In this document: piece by piece, positions 13,264 to 55,419 of the stretch
How the letters are laid out: the number at the start of each line of letters is the position of its first letter
Position numbering within the stretch: position 1 is the stretch's first letter
Origin: Cloeon dipterum
Taxonomy: Eukaryota > Arthropoda > Insecta > Ephemeroptera > Baetidae
DNA: 64,000 nucleotides
Assembly: GCF_949628265.1 (NCBI RefSeq)
Contig: NC_088789.1
Span: 35,581,883-35,645,882 of the forward strand
Direction of reading: 5' to 3'
Program-made: the position numbers and the translations under genes
The notes under the pieces: model-generated
Told to the model about the DNA's origin: nothing
Database searches by the model: none
The model's input: the letters and a program-made list of their open reading frames with translations, nothing else

Positions 13264-16200
13264 TTAAAGCGCCACCGTTGTCAAAATGTGTGCGATTTCA
13301 TCAATGTTGGCAACATTTAGCTCTAAAGCAAGCTGAGACGCAGTCTGACCAGAATTGTTGGTCGCATTTACGTCGACCCTGATTTCCTCGACAAGCCAGC
13401 GAACCACTTCACGCAAATGCTGGCTCTCGCAGTTCTTGATTGCGAGGTGCAAAGAGGTGTTTCCGTCGTTATCCGCTTCTGCGACGAGTTTGCTATTTTT
13501 TCCATGCAGAAGCTTGACCATGTTAGGAGAGATCTTCATTGCTTGGTGCAAATAGTTCTGTCCATTCCTGTCCTTGTAAGTCAAAAATGCTTTGAAGTCG
13601 AGAAGAATGTTGACCATCCTCTCACTGTCTTGCTTGATGGCGTAGTGCAGAGGAGTGTTTCCTTCTGTGTCAAGTGCATTTGGGTCAGCCCCACGCTTGA
13701 GCAGTTCTTCCGACAAGTAATATTCTCCTGACAAGACAGCTCTGTGCAGGGAGTTTTTCCCATTTTCGTCCAACTTTATCAACACAGAAATGTTGCTGCC
13801 AAAGTCGAGAAAGTTGCGCACCAAGAGCCTATTCCCTGACTGGGCGACGTAAATAATAGCTGTGTTACCTGCTCGGTCGCTTTTGGTGAGATCTACGCCC
13901 TCAATGAGCAACATTTTGACCAGGTCCCACCTTCCCTCTCGACACGCGTACATAAGCACGGTTAGCTGATGGTTATCAGTTGCTTCCAAGTCGGCCCCAG
14001 CATCGATCAGCATCTGGATAATGTCTAGATTTCCTAATTTCATCGCCAAGTGTAGTGCCGTCTGTCCAAATTGGTCTTTTGTCATCAACAGGCTTCTATC
14101 CAAGGAAATCCACCTCCTAGTTGCTTCCAAATCGTTGCACATGACCGCATAGTGGAGACAAGAGCTGCCCTGCTTACCCAAGATTGATGTGTCGTCGTCT
14201 GCCGCCATCAGGAGATTGACTATTGAGTCGTCCAAGCTGAGTTCAAGAGCAATAATCACGGCCTTGCGTTCAAGCCTGTCCTTCATTCTGACGTCCACTC
14301 CTGCTTGTTTGACCAGAAATTTTGCAATCTCAAAAAGACTCTGAGAGGTGTGCTTCTTGAAGTTCTGGATCAGGATGTGTAGCACAGTTTGTCTATCTCT
14401 TGTCAGTTCTCTCGCCAATAAGGGTCGTTTGCTTAGCAGAAGCTTCATCACCACCAAAACTTGCTTTCCGAGAGCTGCACAATGCGCAGGGTTCCAACCA
14501 TCATCGTCCATGGCTTCAACGTTGGCTCCAGAATCGACGATCTTTTGAACAAGTTCAGGACCTCCTTTTTCGGCAGCGTGGTGAAGTGGCGTTTTTCTGG
14601 TACTGTCCCTTGCGTTGGCGTCAGAATTCAGCATGAAGACGTGTTCGTTAATAAAACGGTTGCTTGGATCCAAATCCAAAGAACTCAGGTCGACTTTCAA
14701 ATCTTTTACCAGCCAGACCAGCATTTCTCCATTTTCGAGTTCAATTATCAACTGAAGGGGAGTCTTGCCTTCTGCTGTTCGGATCCCTATCAAATCTGGA
14801 CTGATCGAGAATAGATGTTTGGCTATGTCCAATCGCCCTTTGGAAACAGCATGATGGAAGGGATTCATGTTGTCTGTTGACTCTTCTATTTGCAGTGTCT
14901 TCCTGTTTCGTCTGATCCCGCCAAAATGATTCTCCGTCAAGTATTTTACTGCATTCAGGTGATCATACGTAATAGCTACAATCAAAGGGTCGTGCGATCC
15001 TCCTTCAAAAACAGCTTCTTGAGCTCCAGAACGGATTAGAACTTGGATACACCCGACACTACCACACATGCAGGCGAAATGAAGAAGGTTTTGATTTTCT
15101 GCTAACCCAGTCAGGCCATATTCTAACATCAGTACAAGGAGTTGGCTGAAATCATTTCTGACCGCAGCAAATCCTACGGACAATTTATGCTTCTTTAACA
15201 AGTGGGCCAGGTTGGGAAATTGAGCATTCAGACTTTTTGTGAAGCCAATGGCGTTGTTCCCCTCAATTTCGGTGAAAACCTCCTGTATAACTTCCTCCAG
15301 TTTCATTGTATCGAATTTGGGCACCAAAACAACTGCAATTGCTTCGTTTTTTACTGCTATTGGTAATAGCCCTGGATTAAATCTCAAGCCAATCGAAGCG
15401 TGGAGAGTCAAGTGATCCTTCACCAGGTCGAAAATGTTTATCAGATTCTCATCGCACACCAGGGTTAAAAATTCACACGAGTTGGTTCCCTTTGCAACGG
15501 ATAGCCAAAACTTTCTATGCCTCTCGACTACTTCTCCTGTTAAAGTGGCGTAAAAGGAATCTAAAAATTTTCTGCTTTCCTGGTGACGTATTTGGAAGAA
15601 CCAAGAAACATCAGAAGGGACAAATTTTTCAATATCCTTCAACAGTTTCCTTGCAATCAGGAAAGCAGCGATTATTTGATCGTGAAAAGTCACGAGGCCA
15701 TCCAAAACAATCGCAATACCGAAATCCTTGACTTGACCTAATTTTAAGTCAACCAAGTCTCTGGGTCCGGCATCGCTAACATACCAAAGCGCTAGTTGCT
15801 GAAGAATGTTTAAGTGCACTTCGACCTCCGGGTTCTCCAAGCTTTGGTTTGTCCTTTCTAAATACATTTTTGCACAAGCTCTCAGTAAAATCTCATAAAT
15901 TTTATACAAGTTTTGATCAACTTTGTACTTCAAAACTGAACAGAGATGGAACGGATTACCACGTATCTCGTGGCTTTGAATGGGTCCTAGCGAGGTTTTG
16001 GCTTCATGTTCCTTGTGACCGAGAGCCATCAGAAACTCGATCTGCTGCCTTTCATTCATAGGCTCAATTTCCACGGTATGTGCGTTTTCTCGAAATTGTT
16101 TTGCGTGGTGAGGTCTCGCACCGATAATAAAGGGAACTCCTTGCTCGTTTAAGGCCTTAACTAATACACAAACATTTTCTTGGTCAAGTTCGCTAATTTG

Positions 16201-16730
16201 ATCAAAATCGTCAAGAAAAACGAAAATCCTTTTCTCCCGAATCAAAATCTGTATGCTCTCTCCAGATTTATGTGTGATATCTTCAAGAACTTGGATTTGA
16301 TCCCTATCCCTGGGCATGCCAGTGATATACACAGAAATTTCTCTGAGGGATATGTACAGTGCTTCGATTTTAGAGTGTCTTTGCTGTTCAATTCGTCGCG
16401 CAATCTCTAATAGTAAACTAGTTTTTCCCATTCCAGCACCGGCGGAAGTGAAAAGCAAAATTCTGCTTTTCTTAAAAATTTTCAAACATTCTTTCAGGAG
16501 CCCATCAAAGTCAATTTTCTTTACTAATGAGCGTTTACTTATCTTCAGCTTGAAGTTCCGGTTGGTGAAAGCTCTTGCCAATTCAGGTAGGTAGAGAAGA
16601 AACTGGAGGGTTGAGATCAAGCGAACGCTGTGCTTTTCTTCGGTAACCAGCAATTGCATCAAAAGCTCCTGAAGGCTTCTTTTTCTCAGCTCGGTGCCGT
16701 TGAAGATTCCGATCAATTTATCTAGAGTCT
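13264..16730 (-). other. Gene A exon 11: NACHT plus ankyrin array
   Basis: One 3467-nt exon. It opens with the tail of the second caspase-like unit (SLQELLMQLL...STLQFLLYL, resembling a p10 C-terminus). The NACHT follows, with Walker A, Walker B, the sensor-like GARPH and a HDQIIAAFLIARK segment comparable to the NLR 'FAEFLAA' region. Ankyrin repeats with TPLHHAAEKG and TALHLAMKLG cores then run to the stop. The Walker B motif reads DDFDQ, unlike DGFDE in B and C. Confidence 0.85.
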
Positions 16731-19203
16731 CTGCATAAAATAATAACAATAGGTATTTACGTAAGAAAAAGGTTTGAAAATATACCTTCAGATTTCACAA
16801 TCAGAGCCAAAAAGCCGCTATGTCGAGTTGCCGGGATTTCAAATTTCTGGATTCGAGGCTAGAATAAATTTAAAGTTGCATGATTTATTTTGTTAAATGT
16901 ATTTGACACAAAGAAACTTACACCGTCATGTCCAGATATCTGTTCTCCCTCCACCTGCTGGTCAATAATGATCAAGACGAATGGCTTTCCGTTCAGTTTA
17001 TGATTAAAAGGCTCATAAAAGTCTTGCAAAATTTCAGAGACTGGAACTAGTTCTTTGTCCACAAGCACGAAAGTTTGTTTCGTCGTTTCATCTTCAATTA
17101 CTGGGGCGAAGAGACAAGTCACAAAGCAGCCGACATTGAAATCAGACTCATGAACTGATAACATAAAACACGAATGAAACTGAGATCTATATTGGCATAG
17201 CAGTCACTGACCTTGTTTGAAGCTTAGTTTAAGTTCGCTTCTGGTTAGCTCCCGTGCACTTGTTTTGAAGCCTTGCATTTTTAAAGCTCTCGTCATCCTC
17301 TCAACGTGACCATTCTTCCGATTACACAAAACATTGGCTCGAAGACCTGATATGTTTCGTCCTTGGTACGATTTCCAGTCACACGATGCGATTGGTGCAA
17401 TACTTCTTGTGATTTGACTTTGGTCTCCAGTTCCGTCATGATTCAAACTTGGAGATGTCCTGGAAATCAGCCATCCCTGTTATCTCAAGGTTAATTTGCT
17501 CGTTTTCAGAAAATATGACGGCTGAATCGTCTATTTTGGCTTTAAAAAGGCGACACCAAACGGACAACGGACACTCACCTATGGATGACGAATATTGCAT
17601 CGTGAGTAGACGTGACTATTATTGGAGTTTGTCCAGAGTTTTCTTGGCCCCACTGATTTTGAGACATTTGGTGAATGCAATTCTGTACCATTGTCAAGAA
17701 TGATATAATTGACACATTTCTGTCTAGATTGTTCAGTGTCTGGCAGTGTGCCCTCACAAACCAAGAACCATGCTTTTCATCAGTGTTCGACAAGGATCCT
17801 TTTAACGAAACTTGAAATTAAGCCCGATATTCGTGAAATAATCAAAGCTCACCTTCAACTGTCGAATAAAACAAATACAAATTGTGCATTTTTGGCCAGG
17901 TTCTGATATCTTTAATTTGACGATTTTGATTATTATTGTCGTTTATCGCTTCCTCAAGCCCTCCACGGCAAGGCTGTAGATATTTAACAAATTTTTAATA
18001 CTAGTAATCTTTGATTGTGCTCAAGTCATTCCTACACCGAAATTGAAAAGCTTCATGCATTCCTCGAAACCATCCCATTTTGCTACACGAGATAATATGT
18101 CATCAATTTTAAATTTAATAAATTTCTCATCGTCGCCACTGCTTTGGCGCAAGGGATGGTCGGTCCAAATGGTGCCATTTTCCTCACCATGAGAGAGGAC
18201 AAAGAGCACCAACGCCGATGGTATCACTGAATTAAAACAATAACTTGGCACACTGCTGAAACAATTTGGTAGTTGTTGGCATACCTTCGGAGCCGAAAAA
18301 GCGCAGAAACTTATCTCGATCATCCAGAAGTCCAAACAACTCCTCTATTGTAGGCGACGAAAGTTCACGGAAAATACAATTTCGGTTCTCGTAGGTTGTA
18401 CTGAGATTTTCAACATCCTTCACGTTGCATTTTCGAATGTACTTTGATTTTGGAAACCCGTAGTGGACAACAAGGACGAAAACACTAGTTTAAAATTAAA
18501 AAATTAGTAAACTATTTGAAAAATACTAAACAAATTTACATGTCCGGTTTTCCATTCAAACCACAAGAGCCAAATTTAGCCGGTCCCAAGGGTTGACCCA
18601 GATTCCAACCTGGAATTTTTATTTTACTGCTGTTTTGTAAATGACGCAAATGTCAATAATTGGAAAATATCCGAAACGCGGTTTTTCAAAAGAGTCATGC
18701 ACGATGGTGGTTGGAGAGGACAAATACTGTATTTTAGAAGTCGAAACATGAATATTGGGTCACTTATTTTCTGAAAAATTCTCTACCAAATGGTGCAACC
18801 AATGTATTAATTTAATTACCGAGGAAGGTCTCCTAACATGAAACAAGACTAAGGAGAACATCACTATAACCGTAAGGTTTTTAATTAGATTATTCTGTCC
18901 TTACCTCTTTCAATAATTTTATCCAAGTTGCGGTTTTTGCCGTAACCTGTAAAATTGTCATAATCAAACCATATATTGGCACTAGAAAACCAGATAAAAC
19001 AAAAAGACAAATAGTTCAAATTTTATCTCCTTTTTGAGATAAACACGATCAGGTGTTGCGTTTTTTATTTCATCGTTAAATCCACAACATATAGTTAGCA
19101 TAAACAAAATATAGGTTTGAATAATTATTTAATCTCACTTACCCAGAAGACGGACTATGAGACTAACTAGTGCAGCCGAGATTATGAAGACAGGAATGAG
19201 CAT
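13264..19203 (-). CDS. Gene A: membrane-anchored? caspase–pseudocaspase–NACHT–ankyrin protein
   Basis: Eleven exons: 19203-19143, 18946-18905, 18609-18540, 18484-18285, 18226-18036, 17973-17853, 17798-17579, 17459-17212, 17154-16922, 16858-16786, 16730-13264. They sum to 4926 nt, 1641 residues plus stop, with all phases matching. Residues 2-20 are hydrophobic and followed by basic residues: a signal anchor or signal peptide. Next comes a caspase-like domain (about 85-300; His137 in LSHG, Cys190 in PCRG, GSWF of p10), a degenerate second one (about 301-540), NACHT (Walker A SAGAGMGKTS near 582-591, Walker B FLDDFDQ) and about 16-18 ankyrin repeats to the C-terminus. It is the first of three head-to-tail paralogues and lacks the 141-residue N-terminal domain of B and C. 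Role inferred: intracellular sensor with a built-in protease. The start is the only ATG that opens exon 1; a missed upstream exon cannot be excluded. Confidence 0.85.
16786..17459 (-). other. Gene A exons 8-10: degenerate caspase-like domain
   Basis: GLRANVLCNRKNGHVERMTRALKMQGF resembles the first strand and helix of a caspase large subunit when read with B and C (split here only for length). KLNGKPFVLIIIDQQ occupies the place of the usual 'sLxgKPKlfiiQaC', so the nucleophile Cys is gone. The SHG loop reads LFAPV. HSGFLALIVKS resembles small-subunit sequence. Predicted catalytically dead. Confidence 0.7.
17579..18484 (-). other. Gene A exons 4-7: caspase-like domain with His/Cys retained
   Basis: VFVLVVHYGF is the first strand. 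VLFVLSHGEENGTI carries the catalytic His, and NFG|PCRGG carries the Cys, whose codon lies at 17970-17968, the second codon of exon 6. KMHNLYLFYSTVE then GSWFVRAHCQTLN matches caspase small-subunit order. The introns interrupt the domain at the same points in B and C. Confidence 0.8.
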
Positions 19204-24293: not shown

Positions 24294-24301
24294 GGTCTGC
24301 T

Positions 24302-25321: not shown

Positions 25322-28300
25322 CTAGAGCAGGATGCATGTACTAAATTCACTTTCCGCTGGGACAGGTCTTCTCTGAACACGATGCGCAGTGATTAATTTT
25401 TGTTCGTTGACACCGTAGTCGAGCAGCTTTTGCGCTGAAAATAGGTAGTTTCTTCCTGCGACCAGGTCAAGAGCGGTCAATCCATCTTCGTTTTTTACAC
25501 GAACGTCGGCGCCATGTTCCAGCAGCTTTTGCACCAATTCTGGACAGTTATTTTTCGTTGCGAAGTGCAGGGCGGTCCACCCATCTTGGTTTTTAATATT
25601 CACGTCAGCCCCGTGGTCAAGTAGGATTTGCACCGATTCCTTATTTTGCTGAATCACGGCTAGGTGCAGCGGAGTCATTCCTTTTTCGGTTTTTTGGTTT
25701 GCATCTGCGCCAGATTCGAGGAGGATTCGAAGCAAGTTTACGTTGTTTTTAATAGTAGCAATGTGCAGAGCAACCCATCCATTATTTCCTTTCATATTCA
25801 CGTCAGCGCCGTGATTGATCAACTGCTCAACCAGCTCCGGACAATTCTCTTGAATGGCCACGTGCAGAGCGGCCCATCCTGATGGATTTTTCAGGTTCAC
25901 GTCGGCTCCGTGATCGAGCAGCTTTTGCACTAGTCCTGGATAACTTTGACAGGCGAGGTGAAGCGCAGTCAAGCCGGATTTTTCTTTAGAATTGACGTCG
26001 GCCTTGTATTCGAGCAACTTTTGCAATAAATCATTTTGGTTGTCTCTTACAGCGATATGCAGCACTGTCCATCCATTGTTCTCTCTGACATTCACGTCAG
26101 AGCCCTTTTCGAGCAGCTTTTTGATCAAATTCAATTCTCCTGACTTGGTTGCGTAGTGCAACGCGGTGTTCCCCTCCAAGTCTTGAATGTTGAGGCTCGA
26201 GTTTTGGCTCAGCAACATTTCAACGATATCCGTATATGTGTTTTCGCATGCAAGCATCAGCGGGCTGCGACCGAATTTATCAGTTGCACCAAGGTTGGAT
26301 CCTGATTGAATCAAGTTCCGCACGAAACACCAATTTCCTTTCTCAGCAGCCAAATGAAGCGCTGTCCGTCCTAAATCATCTCTAATGTTCAAGTCTCCAC
26401 AAAGTTTTATCCACTTTTGCAACGCAGCCGAGTCATCCGTCATGGCGGCGTAGTGAAGAGCCGATCGCCCGAACTTGTCCTTGAGCGAAGTGTTCACGCT
26501 TCTTGATATCAAATATTGAAAGAAATCTCTGTTCAATTCTCTCTCGAGGACAATTGTCAATGCTGTACGCCCTCTTTTATCCCCAGCGTCAACGTCCACT
26601 CCAGATTCCTCAACCAGAAAACGCACAGCTTCTAAAGCATTGTCATCGTTTTCGCAGTTCTCAACTAGGATGTGCAATGCCGTTTTTCCCTCATTCGTAG
26701 TTTCTTTTGACAATAGTGTGCTCGTTAAGTGCAGCGTTTCAATTATTTCAAATCTGATGTCTTTGCAACATGCGTAATGCAAAGCGTTCCATCCTTCTTG
26801 GTCCTTTACTTGGACATCGGCCCCAGAGGCTATTAGCTTGCGAACGAGTTCGAGATATCCGTATTTTGCGGCACAGTGCAGAGCAGTTTTCCCTCTTTCC
26901 TCTTTTGCTGTGACGTCACCTTGAAGCATCAAGAAGTGTTCGAAGTAGGAAAGATCAATATCCGACCAATCTTTTCGTTCTTTGCTTGGTTTCAAGGACT
27001 CTAAGTCGTGTTCTGCAAGCCAGAGTAGCATTTCCACATTGGTTTGACGAACTGCCATCTGAATTGGAGCTGTGCCGTCCTGCGTTTTGCATCTTACCAA
27101 AGAAGGACTCTTTGATAACAAATATTCTGCTGTGCTTTTATGACCTTCATTGACAGCAAAATGGAACGCATTCCACTCTTGAACCAACCCTTCCACCTTC
27201 AACGTTTCCGGATCTCGTTTAAATCCGCAGATGTTTTCCTCGAGAAGATATTTTACCAGGTCCAGGTGACCGTTTCTGGCAGCAACAGTCAAAGGATCGT
27301 AATACGCGTCAATTCTTCTCCTGTATTTGAGCAGAACCTTGACACATTCGACACTTCCGTGTTTGCATGCGTTGTAGAAGCTGTCCTCGACCTCAAAATG
27401 ATTGAACGCTCCAATTCCGATCTGCAGTAGCAATTCAAGCAGTTTGGCGTTATTTCTTCTAGCCGCTTTAATGCCTACTTTCCGGAGTGGTTCTCTCATT
27501 TCAACATTATGGTAATAACAGGCGTCGACTATGTCACGAAAACCAGGGAATATCAGTTTGAGTTTTTCAAAGGTTCCAACCGCGTTGTGTTCCTCGATTT
27601 GCAGCAGGATGTCGGATAAATTTTGCTCCAAACCCTTCAGGTCGAGAACCCCCATGTCCAGCAGTTCGATGGCGATTTCCTCGCTTCCAATTGCACTTAT
27701 GAACAGGTCTGGGCTTGGCTTCATCCAAATCGAAGCATTGAACTCGTCGCGAAATGAAATGTGCTGTTTCACGATCTTGAAAATGTGCTGCAGATTCTCT
27801 TGAACCACCTTCTTCAAGAAAAATAACGGGCCGAGTGATCTCGCAAGAGTAAGGAGAGCGGCTGTTTGCAATCTCAATTCTCTTTTTTCTCCGTCCTTCT
27901 CAAGATAACTATAAAAAAGATCTATGAATTTTCTGACCTCCGAGAAACTCTGTTTGAAAAAAGCTGGTTCTTTCTCGAAATCTTCAATGAATTTTTGGGC
28001 GCTGAGGAATTCTGCAAACGTTTGGTGCAGAAACCTAACTTCTCCATTCCAAACTGTCGCAACTCCATAATCGCTGTTTACTTTTTGTAAATCTTGCAAC
28101 TCTGGACGGACCAGACTGGATTCCATGATGAAGCGAGAGGCTATAAGTCGGAGACTGCTCAGTGCTTCCTCTTCTTGTCTTTCAAAGACTTTTTCGGCCA
28201 AGCACTCCTTCACCTTCTGTCGCACCACATTGTCATACATTTTGTATAGGTTTCCTTTAGTCTTGCTCTTGGCAAGCAAGAAAAGGTGCAAGGGGTTTAC

Positions 28301-29079
28301 CAGAATGTCTTTAATAGGGAAATTACCTATAAATGGCGCAATTTCTTCTTCGTTCTTCCCCAAATTCTTCAGGAAATCAATTTGCTGCTCCTCGTTTAGT
28401 GGTTCGATCTCTATCATAACTGCATTTTCGACAGTTTCCATGATTGCTTTCGCTTCGTGTGGGCGCGTACTAACACACAGAGGAATCTTCTTTACTTCCA
28501 AAGCTTCTAACAAAGTTAAAACTTTCGACCTGTACTGTGGACAGACCTCGTCGAAGCCATCAAGTAACACGAATGCTCTTTTCTTCCGAATCCAATCATT
28601 GATGTCTTCTGAAGAGTTTCGCGTGGCTTCTGCGAGAAATTTAACCGCACTGTTGTAGGTCTCTAACGCCGTGCAGAATAAGCTCTTTTTTAGTTGGACA
28701 CACAAAGTTTTGATGTGTGGATCGGATTTTCCAAGCTGGAAAGCGATTTCTTTGAGAACGGTGGTTTTTCCTGCGCCGGCAACTGAACTCAATAGCCATA
28801 TTTTTTGAGCTTCTTGTGACGATTTCATTTGTTCCAACAAATCATCAAAGCTCATTCTAGTCAGGGCAACATTTTCTTTGCTTTTCAATGCAAAATTGAG
28901 CTTGACAAAATGTCTGGGGAAGTCTGGAAAATTGAGGTGATATTGCAGAGTTGAATTCAGCAAACTCCTCTCGCTTTTTTCTTCTGACGAGATAAGAAGG
29001 GGCTCGAGTAGTTCCTGTAAGCTCCTACCTTTTTTCGGAGCGTTGTGTTTGAGGATTTCAATCAATCTTTCGACCGCAC
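25322..29079 (-). other. Gene B exon 12: NACHT plus about 20 ankyrin repeats
   Basis: A 3758-nt exon. NACHT motifs lie at about 28.79-28.47 kb. A divergent post-NACHT region leads into degenerate and then canonical ankyrin repeats. The last eight are near-consensus (for example GWTALHFATKNNCPELVQKL), suggesting recent repeat amplification at the C-terminal end. Confidence 0.85.
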
Positions 29080-32000
29080 CTGCGAATCAATATAATTAAC
29101 TGGTTTAATAATACATTTCACAGGTGATACTTCGGACTTAAACTTTAAGAATTTAAAGTTGTTACTAAAAAAAGGTAATAGTACAGATATTCTCGGCTCA
29201 GAAGCAATTTCGAATAAGTAAACGTAAATAATCTAATCAATAAGATCTTCTCTGGATTTTAGCTAACCCCTACACCATCAACTTCGCCAGCTGCAATTCT
29301 GCGTCACTCCGCGGCCGCACTCAGCATCAGCCTCTCATATATTTTTAATAAATCTCTTGACTGGAAAACAGCAGCTATCACACCAATTCCTAATGATAAC
29401 CCGAAAGACAACATGGAAAACTACCGCCCATTAAGCATCACATCACTGGTTGGAAAAACGCTCGAGAGATTTATCCGCGACGGAATGGTCAAATTTTTAG
29501 ACGACAAAAAAGTGTTCCCAAACTGCCAGCACGGTTTCAGAGCAAAACGCAGCAGCTGTCCAGCTGATTGACTCTGCTCAACAATCAACGACTGGACGGT
29601 GACACTGGACGAGAAGATCATATCCACGCGGCATTCTTAGATTGTAGCAAGGCTTTTGACAAAGTAAATCACGCGCGTCTCAAATCCAAGCTTGAGTATT
29701 ATCGCGTTAAAGGGTGGCTTCTTAAGTGGCTGGAAAAATTCCTGGCCGGTCGCACTTAATTTGTGCTCCGAGCCTACGAAAGTCACTTTGGGCTTGATAC
29801 AGGGCAGCGTTCTGGGCTCCTTGATGTTCAACGTGTTCGTCTCCGACCTGCCCGACGCCCTGAAAAAATGCACCCTTGTGCAATATGCAGACGATGCCAC
29901 CATACATAAGAAGATCTCGTGCCAAGAAGACGCGAATGAATTTCAAGATGAACTCAACAACATAGAAAATTAGGTGTGCGAATAATGGCATGGATTTAAA
30001 TTCAAGAATGTGCAAAAATCATGGACATTACGCGCGCGCGGCTATCCTTGCATTTTGAGTACGTCCTTGATGATGCGCCCCTTCAATACGCGGACTCACA
30101 GCGACTGCTCGGGGTGCTCATTGTGCGCGACCTCCGCTGGCGTGTGCACACAGACATCGTGCGGGCGAAAGCGGCGCAGCGGCTTAGCTTTGCGGCGCGT
30201 AATTTGCGAGGGTGCACGCCGCGCGTAAAAAGAATCGCGTATTTGACCATGGTTACCCGACGACGCAGGAAAATATCAACAAACTAAGCAGAGTGCAAAG
30301 CAGGGCGATGCTCTTTGCTTGTGGAAAAATCCTGCCTGACAATGAGCCAAGGCTGCAAAATGTGATGCTGTCCAACATGCACCTGCGGCACACCGATCTT
30401 GTCTTCTTCCAAAGGTGCCAAAGTGGCCAGATAGACTTCGATACAAGAGCGAGAATTATTAGGGGCGCGCCCTGCGAGGGGCAACACGGCACATCCCCGC
30501 CTCCAGCCGCCCCCGGCGAGAACCACTTTTGGCCGATAAGCGCCTTTACAGGGTATCCAAGCCCTGGGAACGACCTGCCACCGATTTTGACGGACTGTGA
30601 CGCATCAAAATTCCCCTCCTTGTGCGAGCAGTTACTGTGGTGCAATTTTTTAAGTGTTCATTCGTATTAATTTATTAATTTACGGCACATGACGACGACG
30701 AATCAATTTTTTGTCTCAAGCGTTTATGCATTTATCCTGCTTGTCATTTCTTGCCATTGTTCATTAGTCTTAATAATATATGAATGTACTTCTTTAAAAT
30801 GAGGAACAAACAGAAATACATACCTTTGTTCTTTAAAATCAACACAAGCCAGCCACTGTGATTCGTAGCAGATGTCTCGAAGTTCCCTGATGCTTCAAAT
30901 TGTTGCCGATGATGCTAGGAGCAATTTTAGAACCTTTGAGAACATTTTTAATCAGATTTTGGGCTTACCCAGTCAGAATGATGTGCTTCCTGATGTACTA
31001 TAAATAATATTTTCGGCTTTCCAATCAAACTGTCACTTTTTGGGCCAACAAAATTGTGCAAAATACTGGTGATTTTAGTTTCTTTGCCGTCCACTAGAAC
31101 ACAAGCTTCTCTCGTTGTTTGATTTTCGGTCACTTGGCCGAAAACACATGTCAAAATGCAGCCAACGTCAGGCTCTAGCTTGGATACTTTGGAAACAAAT
31201 TTTAGCGACCTTAGCAAACTTTATTTAATATAAAACTTACCTTTTTCAAAGCAAGAGTTCAATGATTCTTGGCTTAATGGAGATTTTCTTGTTTCAAAAT
31301 CCAGGTTCCAACGAAGAGCTCTTTCCAATTCTTGCGCATGTTCATCTTGTTTATCGCAGAAAATGAAAGCCCGTCTACCTCGAATGTCGTTGCCCGAATC
31401 CGACTTCCAAGAATAGAACTCGGAAACTTGCGATTTTAGTGCTACTTTTCCTGTCTTGCTATCAATGGGATCAAGGGATCTGAACAAAAATCGAAAGCAT
31501 TGCAGTAAGAATGACTAAAATCCACTGCTGTTATAAAACAGTTTCAAGAAATGTAACTGACTTTGAGAAGACGAACGATCTGTCCTGTTGGAACATCTTT
31601 AACTCAGGGGTTTGGCCTGTGGAGCAATTCGTGCCAGCGAGCGAAGTTTTGTGTATGCGGCACTGCACAGAAGTTAGCAATTTCAGCAGTGGTTGTTCCT
31701 CATTCCGATTTAGACACTCGCAAAATGCCTTGACAAAGAACGACGGCTCGTCCCTTTTTGGGCGTGCTGCTGCAAAACCACAAATAATTGCTTGTAATCG
31801 AAACACTTCTTAGAATATCTTACTCTCAACTGTCGAATAGAGCGTGACAAAGTTGTGCATTCCCGGGCGAGTGGTGATTCTGCATTCATTCATGTTTGCA
31901 TAGTTTTGGCATGGATTCTTTATGTCGAACTTAGAATCCTCCAACGGACCCCGGCATGGCTGAAATATTAAAAAATATGGTTTGATATGACTTTTCATCT

Positions 32001-33533
32001 CGTAATTTTCCTTTTTATTTAATTTTTGGTCGAAGCTTACCCCAAAATTTACGATTTTCAGGGATTCTTCGAATTTTGTAAGCTTCTGTAATGAGTCAAA
32101 GACCTCATCTCTTGCGAAACGTTCGTAATCATTTGTGTTCCTTTTGAAGTGGTCGGTCAATATCGTTCCGTTTTCAGTCCCATGAGAGAGAATGAAAAGC
32201 ACGAAAACAGAAGGCACGTCATCTGAATCAAAAAATATATTATATATTTAGATGAATATTAACTAAAAGGTAATACCTTGTGAGTTGAAAAACTGCAAAA
32301 GCATTTCTTGATCACCAAGAAGTTTGAGCAAAATGTTCTTGTTCGGTGACCGAAAGTTACGGAAATTGCAGTTCCGGTTTTTCCCGAAGGATGTCTTGAG
32401 ATTTTCTACGTCACAGGCGTCTCCGTTTCGGATATATTCAGGATTGTCTTTGAAGTCGTAGTGAATGACCAAGACACAAACACTTAAAAGAGCAATATAG
32501 TTTCCAATTAGATCTAAACTCAGGAAAATTACTTGTCTGCGTTTTGTCTGGTTACTCGTCCATCTATTTCAGATTCAAAAAATCCAAGATTCGCTTTCCC
32601 TTGAGGTCGAATGTGTGTATCGCCTGGAATAAATGAAGAGCCATTAATAGCTTACAACTTAAGTTATGCTGGATGGAAATGTTAGTCGTACACACGCCTC
32701 AAAGAGAAATACCTCTTTCGTCATTCTCCGTGACATCATGCAACTCAATCGGTTTTACCATTTCAACCTCTTTGTCCTCTTGAAGAACGAAAGGAGTCTC
32801 TCCTGCAGAAACAATATTATTTGAGGGACAATAGAGTGGGATTTTCAAAGATAGATATGTGTTCGCAGACCTAGAGACATTTTGGTAGGATTGGACTCCC
32901 CCGCGCTTCTTGAGGCCGTTGAGTAATCTTCATTACTCGATTTCCGATTGGATTCGCTACTCGCGAGTTGCTTGTTTAGCTGAAAAATAGTCGTACAAAG
33001 TTGGTTTGGTATCATTCTATCATTGTTTAATGTTTCAGGTTCTATAGACGTCAAGATCACATAAGATATATATTTTATAATTGTTTCAAAGATAAAAACT
33101 CTTTACTTACCTGCTGCGTCTTGTCGTGTTGTTGACTTCCTGAAGCAACAGAATCATCCAAACGGTGGTAATTATTTGGAACTTTGATGTTGCACGTTTG
33201 GACGAACTGTTGCAGTTCTTGGACTGAGGAAGCAGTGGCAAGAACGAGACATTCTTTGTGTTCTGCCTCGGTCAGCAAGTGCTCGAAATCTTTGTCAGTT
33301 TTGTGGCTTTGGTCCAGGAAGGATCCATCGTCAGGGTCCACCTCCAAAGACTCGTGCCATGCTGATTGGAGCACAGCTCCCCAGAAGTCTTGTCCAAGAG
33401 TGACCCATGCAACTCCTGAATTCGAAATTCTTGCATCTGGTCTTGGTTTCAAAAACTTTGACGGAGCAATGAAGTAATTTATTCTGGTGTTCTTGTCCAC
33501 ACAGAAAGCGAAATAATTGCTCTCTGTTTGCAT
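25322..33533 (-). CDS. Gene B: caspase–pseudocaspase–NACHT–ankyrin protein with unknown N-terminal domain
   Basis: Twelve exons: 33533-33111, 32979-32871, 32802-32713, 32623-32533, 32482-32277, 32222-32041, 31959-31824, 31769-31562, 31479-31241, 31186-30969, 30914-30824, 29079-25322. They sum to 5751 nt, 1916 residues plus stop, phases consistent. Residues 1-141 form a domain shared only with gene C. A Ser/Asn-rich linker follows. Caspase-like domain about 238-481 (His320 in LSHG, Cys369 in PCRG, SFFVKAFC); second caspase-like domain about 482-710, lacking both residues; NACHT with Walker A VAGAGKTT near 764-771, Walker B LLDGFDEV and STRPHEAK; FAEFLSAQ segment; about 20 ankyrin repeats. The last intron is unusually long and holds a LINE relic in antisense. 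Role inferred: single-chain NLR-like sensor and protease. Confidence 0.88.
29268..30665 (+). pseudogene. Non-LTR retrotransposon (LINE) reverse-transcriptase relic
   Basis: Reverse-transcriptase signatures appear in order across several frames. These are WKTAAITPIPND and NYRPLSITSLVGKTLERFI (29.38-29.48 kb), QHGFRAKRSS, FLDCSKAFDKVNH (about 29.64-29.67), QGSVLGSLMFNVFVSDLPD (about 29.8-29.85) and QYADDAT, the YADD catalytic box (about 29.88). A typical C-terminal tail with LLGVLIVRDLRWR follows near 30.11. Frameshifts and stops interrupt it. It looks like a jockey/CR1-like family, but the clade is uncertain. It is inserted in the intron between exons 11 and 12 of gene B, opposite to that gene. 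Confidence 0.85.
30824..31479 (-). other. Gene B exons 9-11: degenerate caspase-like domain
   Basis: IRGRRAFIFCDKQDEH, then ELERALRWNLDF, matches the caspase large-subunit start. DVGCILTCVFGQV replaces the catalytic SHG loop and SLIGKPKILFIVHQEAHH replaces QACRG. ATNHSGWLVLILK follows. Fold apparently kept, catalytic residues absent. Confidence 0.75.
31562..32482 (-). other. Gene B exons 5-8: caspase-like domain with His/Cys retained
   Basis: VCVLVIHYDF, IRNGDACDVENLKTSFG, FVLFILSHGTENGTI, NFG|PCRGPLEDS, RPGMHNFVTLYSTVE and FFVKAFCECLN follow caspase order. The Cys codon is at 31956-31954. The intron between exons 7 and 8 is only about 54 nt. Confidence 0.82.
33111..33533 (-). other. Gene B exon 1: 141-residue N-terminal domain of unknown family
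   Basis: It is strongly similar to gene C exon 1 over its full 141 codons, both exactly 423 nt. Conserved blocks include ESLEVDPDDGSFLD, FWGAV.QSAWHES and HLLTEAEHKEC. The composition is mixed and probably globular. I do not recognise it as a death, CARD, DED, PYD or TIR domain. Confidence 0.7.
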
Positions 33534-47072: not shown

Positions 47073-47099
47073 GTGAGTGTAAATGGCTACAAATGGCCC

Positions 47100-47785: not shown

Positions 47786-47824
<39 letters not shown>

Positions 47825-48030
47825 ACCCCTTGCATCTCAAAATCGAGTCTTACTTACCTGTCACTTGTCCCGGGGTCGATCTTTTCCCCTTCTCTGCGGT
47901 GGAGACGGACTTTGGAGGCTGACTGGAGCTTGCATATCATCAGAGCCGGGCCGGGCTGGTGTGTGTTGACAAAACTTTTACTTTAACTTCTTTTGGGCTG
48001 GAAATGAGACTAAGCAAACCGTTTCATATC
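47100..48030. repeat. Duplicated flanking block of the Dscam-fragment array
   Basis: 'cagctcgatttgcgatcattttcggtct' and the preceding 'gccacgatcgat.ttg.accaaa' at 47.13-47.26 kb match 39.50-39.63 kb. 47.49-47.76 kb matches the flanks at 42.11-42.30 and 43.91-44.08 kb. 47.88-48.03 kb matches 36.08-36.24 kb. This shows segmental duplication over more than 10 kb. Confidence 0.65.
47786..47822. repeat. (CT)n microsatellite
   Basis: About 18 uninterrupted CT dinucleotides. Confidence 0.95.
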
Positions 48031-49213
48031 TCTTGCCTGCTCTGCCGACTCTCCTCATGAAAAAAAACTTTTCTAACACTTCGTTTTCCATTTTGGTCTG
48101 GATTCGGAAATAAAATTAAAACAAAAATTTCAGATTCTTATTTGGGCTATTACAAAGAAACACATTTGTTACCTTTGAAAATCTTAATCTCCCCCGAGAT
48201 TTATAGAATGATCGGTTCGGTGGTCTCAAAAGTAGGCATCCAAGCTAAATTTCAATCAAAAACACATATTTCTTTAGAAGCTAAATCATCCTGGACCTGA
48301 GCTAGCCCTAAGAGTAGATTTTCAGGGACTTATAAATTGCAATTAATTCAAAAAATGCATAATTTCCAAATACTAAACTCGACCTAGTAGAACTGGTAGA
48401 GGGGCATTGAATGAGACCCTTCGGATCCCCGTAGGGTCCATAAATAGATTGCTGAAATGAAAAAAATCACGTTTTTATCAACTTAAGAATCTTTCAACTC
48501 TGCTCCCATCGTTCGTTTTGCGTTCCACCAAAAGGCTCTAATCATTTCCGGTCAAATTCTGCGTTGATTGGGAACTATTGCCAACGCACCATGATCACCT
48601 GTGGCAAAAGGTATAAAAGATGCTTTTTTTTACTCTTTAAAAGCGAACTTGTCAAAAGCCAAAATGGCATATCCACTCGCACGAAAGAGTCAATTTTGGT
48701 TATTCACCACAATTAAGCTTCGCAATTATTTCTAAGTAGTTTTACGAAAAACAATAAAAATCTGGTATTTATTTTAAAGCATATTTTATAAAAACATTAT
48801 ATTTCCAATAGTAACAATAGAAATATTTTAAACACATATTTACATTTTTATTATATGTACAGTTACAAGTGTAATTAGTTTAATTCTATCAAACCTACAT
48901 ATTAAGAATATAGGTACTATTTTAATATTAAAAAGTATTTTTTAGTACTGCCAGATTGTCGCTGTACAATTTATTTATTTCTTAACGCTTCATATACACT
49001 TATAATAGATAATAGGTCAATCGATACTTAAATGATACATAAAATGGATCTAATAATTTTTACAATTGAACGGATAGTATGTTTTTTAAATAGTGCAATA
49101 TGTTGCAAAAAATTTGGGCTCATGTGACTCTGATGTAAAATAACAGCTTTCAAACCAATATTCTCGATTTTTGCAACTGTCTGAAAAATTTCAAATATTT
49201 TTCCCCACTTAGT
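48031..49213. other. AT-rich spacer downstream of gene C
   Basis: No gene or clear repeat is recognised. Confidence 0.4.
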
Positions 49214-49219
49214 TTTATT
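49214..49219 (-). terminator. Candidate polyadenylation signal of gene C
   Basis: AATAAA on the minus strand, about 75 nt past the gene C stop codon. Confidence 0.55.
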
Positions 49220-49293
49220 CGCTTTTTATGTGAATATGTTTCACAAAAATAAATAGACTTTTTGATCACAAAAAATATTTAAAGTATGGATTG

Positions 49294-52200
49294 TTAAAGG
49301 ATTCTAGGTTTTTCTTTCATTTTTCGTAATGCAGTGAAGACTTCTTTGTCATTCCTTATCATTTTATTTACTTTAGCTCTATTGTCAAGCAGTTTTTGGG
49401 CCACTTCTTTCACTGGATTATGCTTAGCCGCCAGAAATAAAGCATTCTCTCCTTTATCATTTTCAACATTTATCTTTGCACCATTTTCGAGCAGCGTTTG
49501 GATCACTTCTGGAGATGAGTTGTATCTAGCGGCGTAATGCAGTGCGGTCCATTCGTCATTGTCTCGTGCGTTTACTTTGGCTCCTTTTTGAATCAAATTT
49601 TGTACAATTTCTGGATTTGTATTCCACCCAGCAGCTAGGTGAAGGGCTGATGATCCATCTTCAACTTGTGAATGAACGTCTGCGCCATTTTCCAGCAGCA
49701 TTTGGACAATTTCTGAAGTTGGGTTAAATTTAGCGGCAAAATGAAGTGCTGTCCATTTGTCATTGTTTTGTTCGTTTATTTTGGCGCCTTTTTCAAGAAA
49801 GATTTTCACTAATTCTGTATTTCTATTAAACCCGGAAGCTAGGTGAAGGGCTGATGATCCATTTATATTTTGTGAATTAACGTCGGTGCCGTTTTCGAGC
49901 AGCGTTTGGACGATTTCAGGAGCTGTCGGGTAATAGCTTGTGGCGTAGTGAAGTGCGGTCCATTTTTCATTGTCCTGTGCTTTTATTTTGGCCCCTTTTT
50001 CGAGCAATATATTCATTATTTCGGGGTTTGTATTCCACTCAACTGCTAGGTAAAGGGCTGATGAACCATCTTTGTTTTGTGAATGAATGTCGGCGTCGTT
50101 TTCGAGCAGCTTTTTGATGATATCTGAAGCTGGGTTATATTTAGCAGCCAAATGCAGTGCGGTCTGTTGTTCATTGTCTTGTGCGTTTACATTGTCACCT
50201 TTTTCAAGCAAAATTTTCACTATTTCAGGGTTTGTATTAAACCCGGAAGCTAGGTGAAGGGCTGTTTTTCCTTGTTCAGTTTGTAAATGAACGCCGGCGT
50301 CGTGTTCAATCAGCATTTGGACAATTTCTGGAGATTGGTTAAATTTTGCGGCAAAATGCAATGCTGTCCAATTGTGATTGTTTTGTGCGTTTACTTTGGC
50401 ACTATTTTCAAGCAAAAATTTCACATTTTCTGGGTTTTTGTTAAACCTAGCAGCTATATGAAGGGGTGTATCTCCATTTTGATCTCTTAAACAAACATTG
50501 GAGCCTCTATCAATAAGTCTTTTCACTAAGTCTAATTGGTTTGACAGCATAGCATAGTGCAAAATCGATTTTCCATCTGGACCAAATTTGTTTAGTTCAA
50601 CATTAGAGATCACAAACTTTTCTACCACTTCCCATTTTTTTCTTGCACCTGCAAGGAGAAGTGGTGTGTTTCTAGTTTTGGTTTCAGCGTTTTTGTCCAC
50701 TTCAGTGTTTTCCAAGAGCCAAAGAGCCACTTCCTCGCTGCATTCCGCGTCATCAATCGCCAGGTGAAGACAGCTTTCTCCATTGTTGGTTTCTTGGTCC
50801 GCTAGCTTGCTGTTCTTTTCGTGCACCATCTTGACCATTTCAAGGTGCCGCAAAGCGAAGTGCAAAGCGTTTTTGCCGTCTTCATCTTTTAATGAGAGAT
50901 CAGGGTTCAGCAGCTCGAACATTTGTCTCAAATTCTCGCGGCAAATTTGGCTGACTAATTTCAAAGGGTTGGTAAATTTAGCAAATTCCTCAAAAGCCTT
51001 TGCGTAGGTGGCGTCCTTCCCCTTCTCCGTAGAAAAGAAAAGGTCAACGAACTTTCTGCACTGAACCAATTCATCATCAAACAGGGGTACCTCTTCAGGT
51101 CCTGGGTTTTTTAAACCGTATAAAAACTTTTGTGCAGTAAGAAATTCTGCAAACACTTGGTGAGTGAAATTTACTCTGCCATTGCAATATGTCACTACTC
51201 CAAAAGCGTTGATCTTCTCTAAATCTTCCTTTGTTACACTGCCTTGGTCGATCTTCACTCCTCTTACGAAACGGAAGGCCACCAATTGGATGAACTTCAA
51301 TTTTTTGTCAACCCTCTCCTTTGCCACATATCTGCCTCCATTTTCTCTCACCAAACAAATTTCAACTTTGCGCCGCACTATTTTGTCAAAGATATCGTAC
51401 AAGTTTCCATCACCTTTGTACTCGGCCAACAAGGTGAGATAGAGTGGGTTTCCCAGAATGTCTTGGTCTTTGAATAAATTCATCAATTGTTCGATTTCTT
51501 CCTGTTTCTTTTGGGCAACGATCTGCAAAAACTCGATCTGCTTTGCTTCATCAAGGGGTTCAATCTCAACTATCGTCGAGTTTTTTATCCTATCTTGAAT
51601 GTGGTGCACTTCGTGGGGCCTGGTCCCGACAAAGAGTGGGACTCTTGCATTATTTAATGCAATCACAACTTTTAGGATTTTTTCTCTGAAATCTGGGCAC
51701 ACTTCGTCAAATCCGTCGAGGCAAACAACGACTTCTCCCTTTTTAATCCAGTTGTTGATGTCGTCATGTGAATTGCGAGTTGTCTTCGCGAGAAATTCTA
51801 TTTCATTTACTTTTAATGCAGGCATGTCAAATATATATTGATAATATTTTTTTAGAGGAATTAGTAGTATTTTAAACCCTCCATCATTTTTGGTAAGTTG
51901 GTACCTCATTTCTTTGAGAACGGTCGATTTGCCTGCTCCAGCAACTGAATTAAACAACCAAACAATGCTCGCGTCAACTGAATCTTTCAGTGCAGAAATA
52001 TCTTCTACGTTTTTTACTTGATGCGACTTTATCGAATATTCAGCATCGCTTGAAAATTTATTTTTCACCGTCTGAAGCTGACTCTCTATCGAATTTTTGT
52101 GTCTCTTACAATTAGTCAATCGGTAGGTCTTTTCCGTTGAAGCATTAAAATCTATGTTTGCCTCAATAGGAGATTTCGTTGAAATGTTGAAACCATCTAT

Positions 52201-52724
52201 TTCGTCTTCGGTAATTTTTGTATTTTTCAGCTCAATTTCGGGCTTGACAAATGCTTGTGACCACTTTTGAAATTTCATGGAGTACTGCAAGGTAGAAACC
52301 AAGGGATTCACATCATCTCCATTGGACTCACGAGTTGGCAGAAGAGTATTATCGTCTTGCAGGCTATTCTCACAGATTTTTCCAAAGCGCTCAATCCCAA
52401 ATGCAAACGATTTTTTGTTTTTCTCAATCAATTGTGTGGCATTTTTCAAGAACGTATCAAAATCCATCTTTTCCTCATCAGCAAATTTTGTTGAAATTTT
52501 AAAACTAACCATGTGATCAGGGGGGATTTTTGTATTTTTTAGCTTGAATTCTGGTTTAACAAACGTTCTTGGGAAAATAGGAAATTTGATGAGATACTGC
52601 AAAGTGGAATTGAGAAGAACCGCATCCTCTCTATTGGACTCACGAGTTAGCAGAGGCTCCAGAAGTTCTTGCAGGCTTTTCTCACCGATGTTTCCAATTA
52701 GTTCAATCAACTTCTCTAATTCGT
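49294..52724 (-). other. Gene C exon 11: duplicated linker, NACHT and 15 ankyrin repeats
   Basis: A 3431-nt exon. The first roughly 620 nt hold two related copies of a linker (SLQELLEPLLTRESN... and SLQDDNTLLPTRESN..., each followed by STLQY and a FVKPE/LKNTKI segment). NACHT follows at about 51.97-51.58 kb, then ankyrin repeats. Repeats 6 to 15 alternate in two types, a two-repeat unit of about 200 bp. Confidence 0.85.
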
Positions 52725-55419
52725 CTGTGAAAACGTGTTTTAGTTATGCACACCTTTTAATAAAATACGTTATTTTGAAACTTACCTTCATATTTTAAAA
52801 TCAAAACTAGCCAGCCACTGTGGTTTGTAGCAGAAACTTGCAAATCTTTTATGTCCACAGGGAACTAAAAATTTTAAGATGTGTATCAAATTCATATTTA
52901 GCATCGATTCGATTAGAGCTTACACTGTGCGTTTGAGGTACCTCCACGTTAACAACAAACAGAATTTTCGGCTTTCCTATCAATTTTTCGTTTTTAGGAC
53001 CAACCAAGCTGTGCAGGATGTCAGTGACCCGAATCTCTCGATCCTTTTGCACGCGCACGCAAACCTCTTTCTGTTCGTTTTCACACACAGGGCCAAATAT
53101 GCAGGTCAAAACGCAGCCCACGTCTGGTTCCAACTTAAACACTGCAAAACCATAATTAATTCATAAATTTAATTTAATTCATTTTATACTTACCTTCCTT
53201 CTTTTTTTTATCAGAATCATCGTCGTGACCTTTCAGTTCTGTAAGATTCATGTATGCAACTTCGAAGCCTAGGCTCTGAAGGACTGCTTTCATTTTTCGC
53301 TCTTGATCGCTTTTGACTAGAGATAAAATGAATCCGCTGCGACCCCTGATTTGATTTTTATCATCCGATTCCCAGGAGAAATATGGATCATCTTTGATCA
53401 TGCCAGCAATATCATCAGTACTGCCACTAAGTTTTTCTGTGATGTTTGGCCTGAAAAAAATCGGTTGTATGAAGTGTTATACTGTTTGCTAACTTCTTAA
53501 GATTTATGTTTAGACAAATAGGATTGATTTTATAGAAATCTGTTCAATATAATGCTACTCACTTTGAGATTATGAATTTTCTGTCCTGTGTAAACATTTT
53601 GATTTCTGGTGTCTGCCCAAAAATATTGTACTTCTTGTTCCAGTAATGGAGAAGCGTTTCATGCCTTCGATTTTGAACAATGGTGAAGAATTTCAACAAG
53701 GTCTCATCATTTTTCAAGTAGTTCAAACACGTGCAGATATCTCGAACAAACCATGAACTCTTAGCTGCATCCCCGCGTGCCAATGTCGCTGATTAAGTTT
53801 TAAAAGAATTAGTAATACGAAAGGAGCAATCGTTGCCGTTAAAATTACTTTCAACTGTCGAATAGAACACGACAAAGTTGTGCATTCCTGGGCGAGTGGT
53901 AATTCTGCATGCATTCCTGTTTTCGTAGTTTTTGTACGATTTATTACTGTCGTACTTTGAATCCTCCAACTCCCCGCGACATGGCTGAAACATAAAAAAT
54001 ATTTTGATATTACTGGTCATTTTAAAAATTTTCCAGGTAAGGTTTATAATTGTGTTTGTAAAACTCACCGCAAAATTCACTATTTTCAGACAATTTTGGA
54101 ATCTCTGTAGCCTCTGTAATGAGTCAAATACCTCATCTGTTGTGAAATATTCATCTTTGTTGGTCTTTATCTCTCCGTCTATTTTCCCATGGGCGAGAAT
54201 AAAAAGCACGAAAGCAGAGGGCACGTCATCTGAAATTATGAAGTGATCATGAGTTAAGATAAATTTTAATTTGAATGTAATACCCTTTAAGTTGAAAAAA
54301 TCCATAAGCTTTTGTTGATCGCCGAGGAGTTCGAGCAAAGTCCGTTTGTTCGGTGAATAATCACGGAAATTGCAATTTCGGTTTTTCTCGAAGATAGTCC
54401 TAAGGTCCTCTACGTCACAGGCGTTTCCATTTTTGATACATTTATCACGATCTTGGCACAGGTAGTTAATAACCAGGACACAAACACTAGAAAAGGCGAA
54501 ATTATAGTTTCTAATTAGATGTAATTTCGGGGGAAATTACTTGTCTGCGTTTTGTCTGATGACACGTCCATCTATTTTAGATTCGAAATATCCTAGATTC
54601 GCTTTCCCTTTAGGTATATTGTATGTGTAGCCTGAAATAAACGAAATGATATTAAATTTCTGTAACTCTTAATGTCGGACGGGAATCTTTGTAGAAAATA
54701 CGCGCATCAAAGAGAAGTGACTGTCTCTAAAGTTCGATGTCAATAAGACATAAAATATTTGCACACCTCCTTGAGATGTTGTTTTAGAGTTTGTCTCCTC
54801 CAAGCTTTTCAAGGCCGTTGAGCTATCTTGATTACTCGTTTGCTGATTGGATTCGATGCTCCTAAATTGGTCGTTATCCTGAAACATTGTCGTAGAAAAT
54901 TTGTTTGTATCATTTTCTGAGTTTTGGATTCTAGACGTCATGATCAAATTAGAACCTATAATAATATAGTTTTCATAGAGAAAAATCTTGATGTACCTGC
55001 TGCGGCTCGTCGTGTTGTTGACTTCCTGAAGCGACAGTAAAATCCAAACGTCGGTATTTATTTGGAACTTCGATGTTGCTGTCTTTAATGTGCTTTTGAA
55101 GTTCTTGAACGGAGGAAGCAGTTGCTAAAACGACACATTCTTTATGCTCTGCCTCGGTGAGCAAGTGCTCGAAATCTTCGTCAGTCTTGGGTTTTTTGTC
55201 CAGGAAGGATCCATCGTCAGGGTCTACCTCCAAAGACTCGTGCCATGCTGATTGGAACACAGCTCCCCAGAAATGTTTTCCAAGAGTGTCCGAGGCAACT
55301 CCTGGGTTCAAATGTCTTGCTTTTGGTCTTGGATTCAAATATTTTGATGGTACAATGAAGTAATTTTTTCTGGTAGTTTTGTCCAAACAGTAAGCGAAAT
55401 AATTTCCTTCTGTTGCCAT
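49294..55419 (-). CDS. Gene C: caspase–pseudocaspase–NACHT–ankyrin protein with unknown N-terminal domain
   Basis: Eleven exons: 55419-54997, 54878-54767, 54631-54541, 54486-54284, 54229-54069, 53984-53849, 53788-53563, 53450-53194, 53141-52924, 52864-52786, 52724-49294. They sum to 5337 nt, 1778 residues plus stop, phases consistent. The 141-residue N-terminal domain is shared with B. Caspase-like domain about 209-451 with His290 in LAHG (Ser to Ala against A and B), Cys332 in PCRG, and SSWFVRDICTCLN. Second caspase-like domain lacks both. An internally duplicated stretch of about 100 residues precedes NACHT (Walker A VAGAGKST near 895-902, Walker B CLDGFDEV, GTRPHEVH). FAEFLTAQ segment; 15 ankyrin repeats, most of 34 residues. 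It lacks the counterpart of gene B exon 3. Paralogue of A and B in the same orientation. Confidence 0.88.
52786..53450 (-). other. Gene C exons 8-10: degenerate caspase-like domain
   Basis: IRGRSGFILSLVKSDQERKM with AVLQSLGFEV matches a caspase large-subunit start. DVGCVLTCIFGPV and KLIGKPKILFVVNVEV occupy the catalytic loops, without His-Gly or Cys. SATNHSGWLVLILK follows. Confidence 0.75.
53563..54486 (-). other. Gene C exons 4-7: caspase-like domain with His/Cys retained
   Basis: FVLFILAHGKIDGEI, NFA|PCRGELEDSKYD, RPGMHNFVVFYSTVE and SSWFVRDICTCL in caspase order. The Cys codon is at 53981-53979, again the second codon after a phase-0 intron. Confidence 0.82.
54997..55419 (-). other. Gene C exon 1: 141-residue N-terminal domain of unknown family
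   Basis: Full-length counterpart of gene B exon 1, with the same exon length and a phase-0 end. Both end in a Gln-rich stretch (HDEPQQ here). The start ATG is shared in position with B. Confidence 0.7.

Follow-up and report, generated by a model that had tools for sequence, protein, structure and literature searches.

Can the receptor, the adaptor and the protease of an inflammasome be reduced to a single polypeptide chain, and could this have happened in an insect? These questions are raised by a 64,000-nucleotide stretch (the window) of chromosome C4 of the mayfly Cloeon dipterum, in which three paralogous genes, here called A, B and C, had been read from the sequence alone as joining a caspase-like protease domain, a second, dead caspase-like domain, a NACHT NTPase and a long ankyrin array. 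Textbook insects signal without NACHT receptors. After searching the whole genome (190 Mb, 10 contigs), the three genes turn out to belong to a family of about a hundred genes of caspase-NACHT-ankyrin type in C. dipterum, with a single-gene order at some 90 loci. The model that we favour, with a probability of about 0.6 as a whole, is that of an adaptor-free, self-contained "inflammasome", a one-chain receptor-protease whose protease activity, ligand and immune role form the conditional part of the proposal.

The genes are host genes of the mayfly, as supposed: gene B is LOC135942105 ("uncharacterized protein LOC135942105 [Cloeon dipterum]"), whose annotated protein is 98.9% identical over 1742 residues to the present model, and other annotated Cloeon relatives are located on C1, C2, C3 and C5. 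The three paralogues all lie where they had been placed, on the minus strand. Their 5' exons were spliced with a purpose-written GT-AG spliced aligner trained on paralogues, giving frames without stops of at least 1559 residues for A (8 exons, 18486 to 13264), 1896 for B (12 exons, 33533-25322) and 1751 for C (11 exons, 55419-49294). In gene A the spliced alignment stopped short of the N-terminal exon or exons, the start given for the first caspase exon being provisional, and a GPAKFG-like stretch just upstream of that exon was spotted by eye only; in gene C the NACHT-ankyrin part is treated as a single open exon despite introns that the aligner placed inside it. The NCBI model of B (1742 residues) starts at an internal Met, has the same caspase and NACHT parts, differs in two exon joins and includes the last two linker exons and the end of the first, the last one bearing the GKANLGFFES...NADN start of the family. 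Profile and PDB matches bear out the proposed domain plan, and the Peptidase_C14, NACHT and Ank families of Pfam are all matched in A, B and C. For the spliced 5' exons, Peptidase_C14 reaches E 5.2e-18 in A (profile positions 5-225), 1.3e-19 in B (3-224 of 233) and 3.4e-15 in C (20-225); for the long exons, Ank_2 reaches E 4.1e-80, 9.4e-169 and 5.8e-127, respectively, and NACHT E 1.1e-6 in A and 2.7e-12 in B, the match of C (E 6e-5, 23.4 bits) being below the curated cut-off of 26.7 and at the cut-off in the genome search.

Are the caspase and the NACHT halves really parts of one gene? The NACHT search of the genome gave 101 matches, largely clustered (46 on C4 and 34 on C2), and a pseudocaspase query gave 119 exon matches at 103 distinct loci; a caspase query gave 284, of which the best 150 were listed. 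A pseudocaspase match lies at most 4.5 kb upstream on the same strand for 92 of the 101 NACHT matches, so that the association is not due to chance, and a caspase match lies at most 6.5 kb upstream for 77 (among the matches listed plus 36 from an earlier search). Both accompany 74 NACHT matches and neither accompanies six (among the caspase matches listed), and neighbours in the wrong place are almost absent (none on the opposite strand, one downstream). Twenty-three loci were then read, namely 20 fetched ones (8 of them picked for a nearby caspase match) and A, B and C: the full exon order is present in 22, of which 21 are stop-free (locus L030 has one stop), and L017 has no caspase part. Before the NACHT exon, 20 of the 22 have an intron of only 55-84 bp, hardly enough space for another gene to begin; in B it measures 1744 bp and in L022 2512 bp. 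An annotation chimera, in which caspase-pseudocaspase genes and NACHT-ankyrin genes would be separate neighbours, could appeal to the contrast between a NACHT-ankyrin part in one long exon and an intron-rich caspase part, and to some short annotated proteins (P0181, P0185, P0186 and P0187) in which Pfam finds only the caspase part; yet the recurrent order, the short intron, the upstream pseudocaspases and the fact that NCBI gene models of two mayfly species join both parts make it most improbable. A chimera of the assembly was rejected, given that the order repeats at some 90 loci. The fusion that the sequence-only reading had put forward is supported.

The first of the two caspase-like domains has the features of a protease. 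A caspase fold was found in the predicted model of a paralogue, as had been anticipated; the catalytic His and Cys are kept in all 22 spliced models and, among 40 aligned annotated proteins, in 38/38 and 38/39, respectively. The Cys motif after splicing is GPCRG in 19 of the 22 models, APCRG in two (C and L036) and GSCRG in one (L030), which differs from the canonical QACxG pentapeptide of caspases (MEROPS C14A). As for the S1 residues, the Arg64 equivalent is Arg in 34 of 36 aligned proteins and the Arg207 equivalent in 25 of 39. An intron of 54-89 bp lies immediately 5' of the PCRG that contains the catalytic Cys in 22 of 22 spliced models, a count to be read knowing that the aligner profile was trained on the spliced form, although several loci were spliced there unprompted and the NCBI model of B agrees. 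This intron is in frame in B and C, and reading through it gives "QPCRG", a motif that was rejected since it arises from the intron and its CAG acceptor, the spliced motif being GPCRG or APCRG. For the same reason, the lengths given earlier (1641, 1916 and 1778 residues) come near the present ones without being exact.

The second domain appears from its profile to be a caspase p20 homologue that has lost its catalytic residues, that is, a cFLIP-like pseudocaspase. When a profile built from ten family sequences (including those of A and B) was compared with the PDB, 75 distinct sequences matched at E<=10, of which 60 were listed, every one a caspase (best E 7.1e-7). The position of the catalytic His carries no His, and Cys is not conserved at that of the catalytic Cys. 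With regard to a possible complete p10 half, the predicted strands and helices of residues 326-543 run in order like those of the active caspase, and the list of the fold search was filled by the active domain. Pfam recognises a caspase in this domain in 3 of 10 members, which counts against the assignment.

What kind of receptor would this be? In the NACHT domain (PF05729) the Walker GK and D..D are kept in 40/40 aligned proteins; both the Walker motifs and the caspase dyad are intact in most members examined, as the sequence-only reading had it. An NLR-like (NOD-like receptor) winged-helix motif is present in the family, and the best PDB match of the NACHT profile is NAIP, with NLRP3 also among the best ones. 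The profile of the whole family gave 60 listed PDB matches, all of them ankyrin-repeat proteins. No LRR family appeared in the Pfam scans of A, B and C, with ankyrin in its stead, and scanning the first 238 residues of gene B with Pfam revealed no death-fold family (CARD, PYD, Death). The earlier assignment to the NLR plan therefore stands as regards a NACHT with a repeat sensor but not under the strict definition, which demands a NACHT, an LRR and a death-fold domain, and by its domain content the family would be NLR-like rather than bona fide NLR. B and C begin with an N-terminal domain of 141 residues belonging to no known family. In 13 annotated Cloeon proteins (from two assemblies, so that some may be the same gene) its exon starts no later than the fourth residue, and in others it is not found; AlphaFold predicts a mixed alpha/beta fold with a low confidence score (pLDDT 61) and no PDB match at E<=0.001. 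A side observation concerns the architecture of the exons: throughout the family a single long exon encodes the NACHT-ankyrin half (with open frames of up to 2699 codons), and introns interrupt the caspase half every ~70 codons, which gives the impression that a unit without introns was joined to a gene rich in them. Despite this striking contrast there is no case for horizontal transfer of the NACHT-ankyrin exon, because of the aforementioned match to NAIP.

The evolution of the family is likewise NLR-like, as supported by a faster ankyrin sensor, a constrained effector, tandem clusters and lineage-specific expansion. Among six paralogues of the C4 cluster (15 pairs, which share genes and are not independent), the median ratio of nonsynonymous to synonymous substitution rates (dN/dS) is 0.31 for the caspase, 0.31 for the pseudocaspase, 0.38 for the NACHT and 0.67 (range 0.57-0.97) for the ankyrin part, which exceeds the caspase in 15/15 pairs. 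The caspase and the pseudocaspase are thus under purifying selection, and the ankyrin part evolves faster. A tree of 40 proteins, rooted at its midpoint, groups all 27 Cloeon members into a single clade (support 0.90) that excludes the 13 of Neocloeon triangulifer, which implies, in this sample, a separate expansion of the family in each species. The family shows the birth-and-death pattern of receptor families.

Under the one-chain model, each gene would encode a single polypeptide ordered as caspase, pseudocaspase, NACHT and ankyrin (preceded by the N-terminal domain in some). The ankyrin array would bind or sense the ligand; the NACHT, judging from its intact Walker motifs and the NLR-like winged-helix motif, would bind ATP and oligomerise; and the oligomer would gather the attached caspases, leading to their proximity activation without any CARD, DED or ASC adaptor. 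The pseudocaspase would most likely be a built-in dimer partner of the adjacent caspase, as cFLIP-L is for caspase-8, and the released or clustered caspase would cut Asp-containing substrates, resulting in cell death or an immune signal.

Several observations weigh against this model. Of 39 proteins, 36 have Gly in place of the S1 Gln of QACRG, and Thr stands at the Arg207 place in 12 of the 27 Cloeon proteins, so that the cleavage specificity may be altered, or the activity reduced, in part of the family; moreover, 20 of 93 returned proteins lack one or both of the His and Cys motifs (as judged with a simple pattern, and with some fragments, poor models and outsiders included). From these changes, from the 14 of 39 proteins with a residue other than Arg at the Arg207 place and from the annotated model of one relative without the catalytic Cys, it could be argued that in most members the "active" caspase is no working protease, the tandem being a scaffold or its specificity being no longer for Asp. 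This is improbable in view of the nearly invariant dyad, in the spliced models as well as in the annotated proteins, and of the caspase dN/dS of ~0.3, given that a scaffold would not need the dyad. Regarding the pseudocaspase, a direct hhalign comparison with the family's own caspase gave no support (probability 0.8%), and 12 of the 119 pseudocaspase exon matches have no listed NACHT downstream. A search for gasdermins was empty, although it was blank in control genomes too and is thus uninformative. As for the sensor, its higher dN/dS could be relaxed constraint; among eight annotated paralogues (28 pairs), with mean identities of 78% for the caspase, 83% for the pseudocaspase, 81% for the NACHT and 72% for the ankyrin part, the latter falls below the caspase in 19 pairs and above it in 9, by which some genes look mosaic; LOC135942247 and 245, for instance, have caspases that are 100% identical and ankyrin parts that are 75% identical. 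A selection test by repeat position is only suggestive: the ankyrin pN/pS is 0.99 at what we take to be the DARPin-type positions versus 0.32 at the structural ones, with only 3-4 repeats per gene registered.

Would such a receptor necessarily be antimicrobial? The same one-chain protein could instead serve self/non-self recognition or the control of selfish elements, germline quality control or a developmental death switch. Some fungal NACHT genes act in allorecognition (PMC12881547, in its available part), and the lineage-specific expansion seen in the tree would suit any recognition conflict. Nevertheless, a fast-evolving ankyrin part together with tandem clusters and a constrained effector is what pathogen receptors usually show; this is no proof, and a non-antimicrobial job seems rather unlikely to us. 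The antimicrobial one-chain receptor-protease therefore remains the preferred reading.

How widespread, and how new, is this type of protein? Among the matches listed from searches of 5.8 billion proteins, caspase and NACHT occur together only in C. dipterum and N. triangulifer, so that the relatives looked for were found in a second mayfly. After these come weak matches to ankyrin proteins or to proteins with NACHT alone, and one to a caspase-6, and in one search mostly vertebrate ankyrins follow the mayfly proteins. One of these searches listed the best 120 of 125 matches and two scored the 7998 best candidates only, and since a protein is found only if it shares 5-residue words with the query and falls within a length window, more divergent members in other orders may have escaped. 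Public databases already contain the members under the name "uncharacterized" and give some of them a caspase- or NACHT-domain label. The C. dipterum genome has been published together with stage-specific expression data (PMC7250882), and a term search of the main text gave 0 occurrences of NACHT, caspase, ankyrin and NLR. Literature searches, covering few subscription papers and no bioRxiv preprints, returned no description of the family; the sequences are thus known and, as far as could be seen, the family is undescribed. As for the general statement that insects lack NLRs, in the available texts reviews say so for Drosophila, in which NACHT is absent (PMC2575513), and for various arthropods, while one survey, which describes arthropod NLRs as devoid of an N-terminal effector, lists NACHT or NACHT-LRR proteins in shrimp (PMC11508797).

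The plan can be compared with several known systems. Animal NLR inflammasomes (NAIP/NLRC4, or NLRP3 with caspase-1) share the NACHT NTPase, the repeat sensor and the presumed proximity activation of a caspase; unlike them, the mayfly proteins have the caspase in the same chain, no recognised CARD or PYD, ankyrin repeats for LRRs and an extra pseudocaspase. In the apoptosomes of Apaf-1 with caspase-9 and of Dark with Dronc, a wheel of STAND ATPases also activates a caspase, but it is built of NB-ARC and WD40 domains and the caspase is separate, whereas the mayfly family has NACHT, ankyrin and a fused caspase. A parallel for an active caspase beside a dead one is the active heterodimer that cFLIP-L forms with caspase-8 (PMC11121540), although those are two proteins and the mayfly domains are in tandem on one chain, where their pairing is putative. 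Fungal NLRs, with CHAT caspase-like or serine protease effectors and commonly with ankyrin repeats (PMC12881547), also have a protease domain at the N terminus, but CHAT is a distant caspase relative and the mayfly effector is a C14-type caspase fold followed by a pseudocaspase. Bacterial STAND NTPases fused to a caspase effector (PMC8195603) are prokaryotic and have other partner domains, and the available part of that paper describes no caspase-pseudocaspase tandem. As far as these partial sources go, the fungal CHAT NLRs and the bacterial fusions are the nearest in plan. Amphioxus offers a similar adaptor-free shortcut from receptor to caspase in its TNFR-caspase, LRR-caspase and DED/Death-NACHT hybrid genes, but no caspase-NACHT fusion is described in the available part of PMC2575513.

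Mayflies are one of the oldest winged-insect lineages, and the family would show that insects can evolve NLR-type immunity. It is, moreover, a natural test of whether the inflammasome is reducible to one chain, and its tandem makes the role of a pseudocaspase as activator directly testable on a single polypeptide; the published genome and expression data make such tests feasible.

One relative may add a further layer of control. Protein P0190 and the locus C4:8,632,736-8,639,222 have the family's tandem caspase; after it come NACHT and ankyrin parts, a pair of BIR domains and a RING-like finger (matching zf-C3HC4_3 with E 1.2e-4, which falls short of the cut-off). P0190, a model from another assembly, skips the NACHT and has no Cys motif at the place of the catalytic Cys; in the present genome there is a Tyr at the His place, and since the splice around the Cys is doubtful there (very short exons), the loss of the Cys rests on the P0190 model. 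The simplest reading is that of a putative inhibitor built on the receptor's own plan. Tentatively, then, the baetid circuit might be a complete and adaptor-free one, comprising ~100 one-protein inflammasomes, each with a sensor, an NTPase wheel, a protease and a built-in cFLIP-like partner, plus one or more matching BIR-BIR-RING brakes. Such a brake, its caspase devoid of the Cys, would enter the wheels of the receptors and either ubiquitinate them or hold them in check, in the manner of an inhibitor of apoptosis; the whole is a possibility that we regard as doubtful.

Two further loci were noticed in the same genome. Genes with BIR domains (inhibitors of apoptosis) are densely clustered at C3:7.77-7.88 Mb, with 31 exon matches in ~0.1 Mb, so that caspase inhibitors are expanded as well. 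At L039 (C1:20963001-20973000, positions 4207-7770), tandem caspase exons are followed by an exon at the NACHT place that Pfam does not recognise as NACHT and, further on, by DM9 repeats (E 3e-25 and 4e-39). A BIR gene lies immediately upstream; the locus may be a candidate fusion in which the sensor part was swapped for DM9 repeats.

Table 1. Positions of the parts of genes A, B and C in the window, and of the BIR-containing relative in its own segment.
Gene	Feature	Position	Strand	Exons and remarks
A	NACHT-ankyrin	13264..16730	-	single exon; Walker A GMGKT, Walker B LDDFD; ankyrin array to stop
A	NACHT match in own genome	C4:35597903-35598319
A	pseudocaspase	16786..17417	-	17417-17212, 17154-16955, 16858-16786; splice model; row of PDB-matching profile
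A	caspase p20/p10	17579..18486	-	18486-18285, 18226-18036, 17973-17853, 17798-17579; Peptidase_C14; LSHG, GPCRG
B	NACHT-ankyrin	25322..29079	-	one exon; Pfam; NCBI model
B	pseudocaspase	30824..31454	-	31454-31241, 31186-30969, 30875-30824; NCBI joins two exons slightly differently
B	caspase	31558..32482	-	32482-32277, 32222-32041, 31959-31824, 31769-31558; intron directly before PCRG
B	linker, three short exons	32533..32979	-	32979-32871, 32802-32713, 32623-32533; splice model
B	N-terminal domain	33111..33533	-	one exon; 141 residues, no known family
C	NACHT-ankyrin	49294..52724	-	one exon; insert before Walker A; Pfam
C	pseudocaspase	52786..53426	-	53426-53230, 53141-52926, 52845-52786; splice model
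C	caspase	53563..54486	-	54486-54284, 54229-54069, 53984-53849, 53788-53563; LAHG, APCRG
C	linker	54541..54878	-	54878-54767, 54631-54541
C	N-terminal domain	54997..55419	-	one exon; start codon at 55419
L037	NACHT-ankyrin-BIR-BIR-RING	C4:8632001-8642000, frame 3602-7465		single 1288-residue frame

With regard to the rest of the window, an Rfam scan gave no match, and ARAGORN (bacterial setting only) called a tRNA-Val at 10115-10197 on the minus strand, within the region of a Dscam-family gene. That gene, recognised by its Ig and FN3 domains and by the C-terminal FN3 domain of DSCAM (E 1.1e-23), lies within window positions 1-12000 on the plus strand and adjoins the cluster, tail to tail with gene A.
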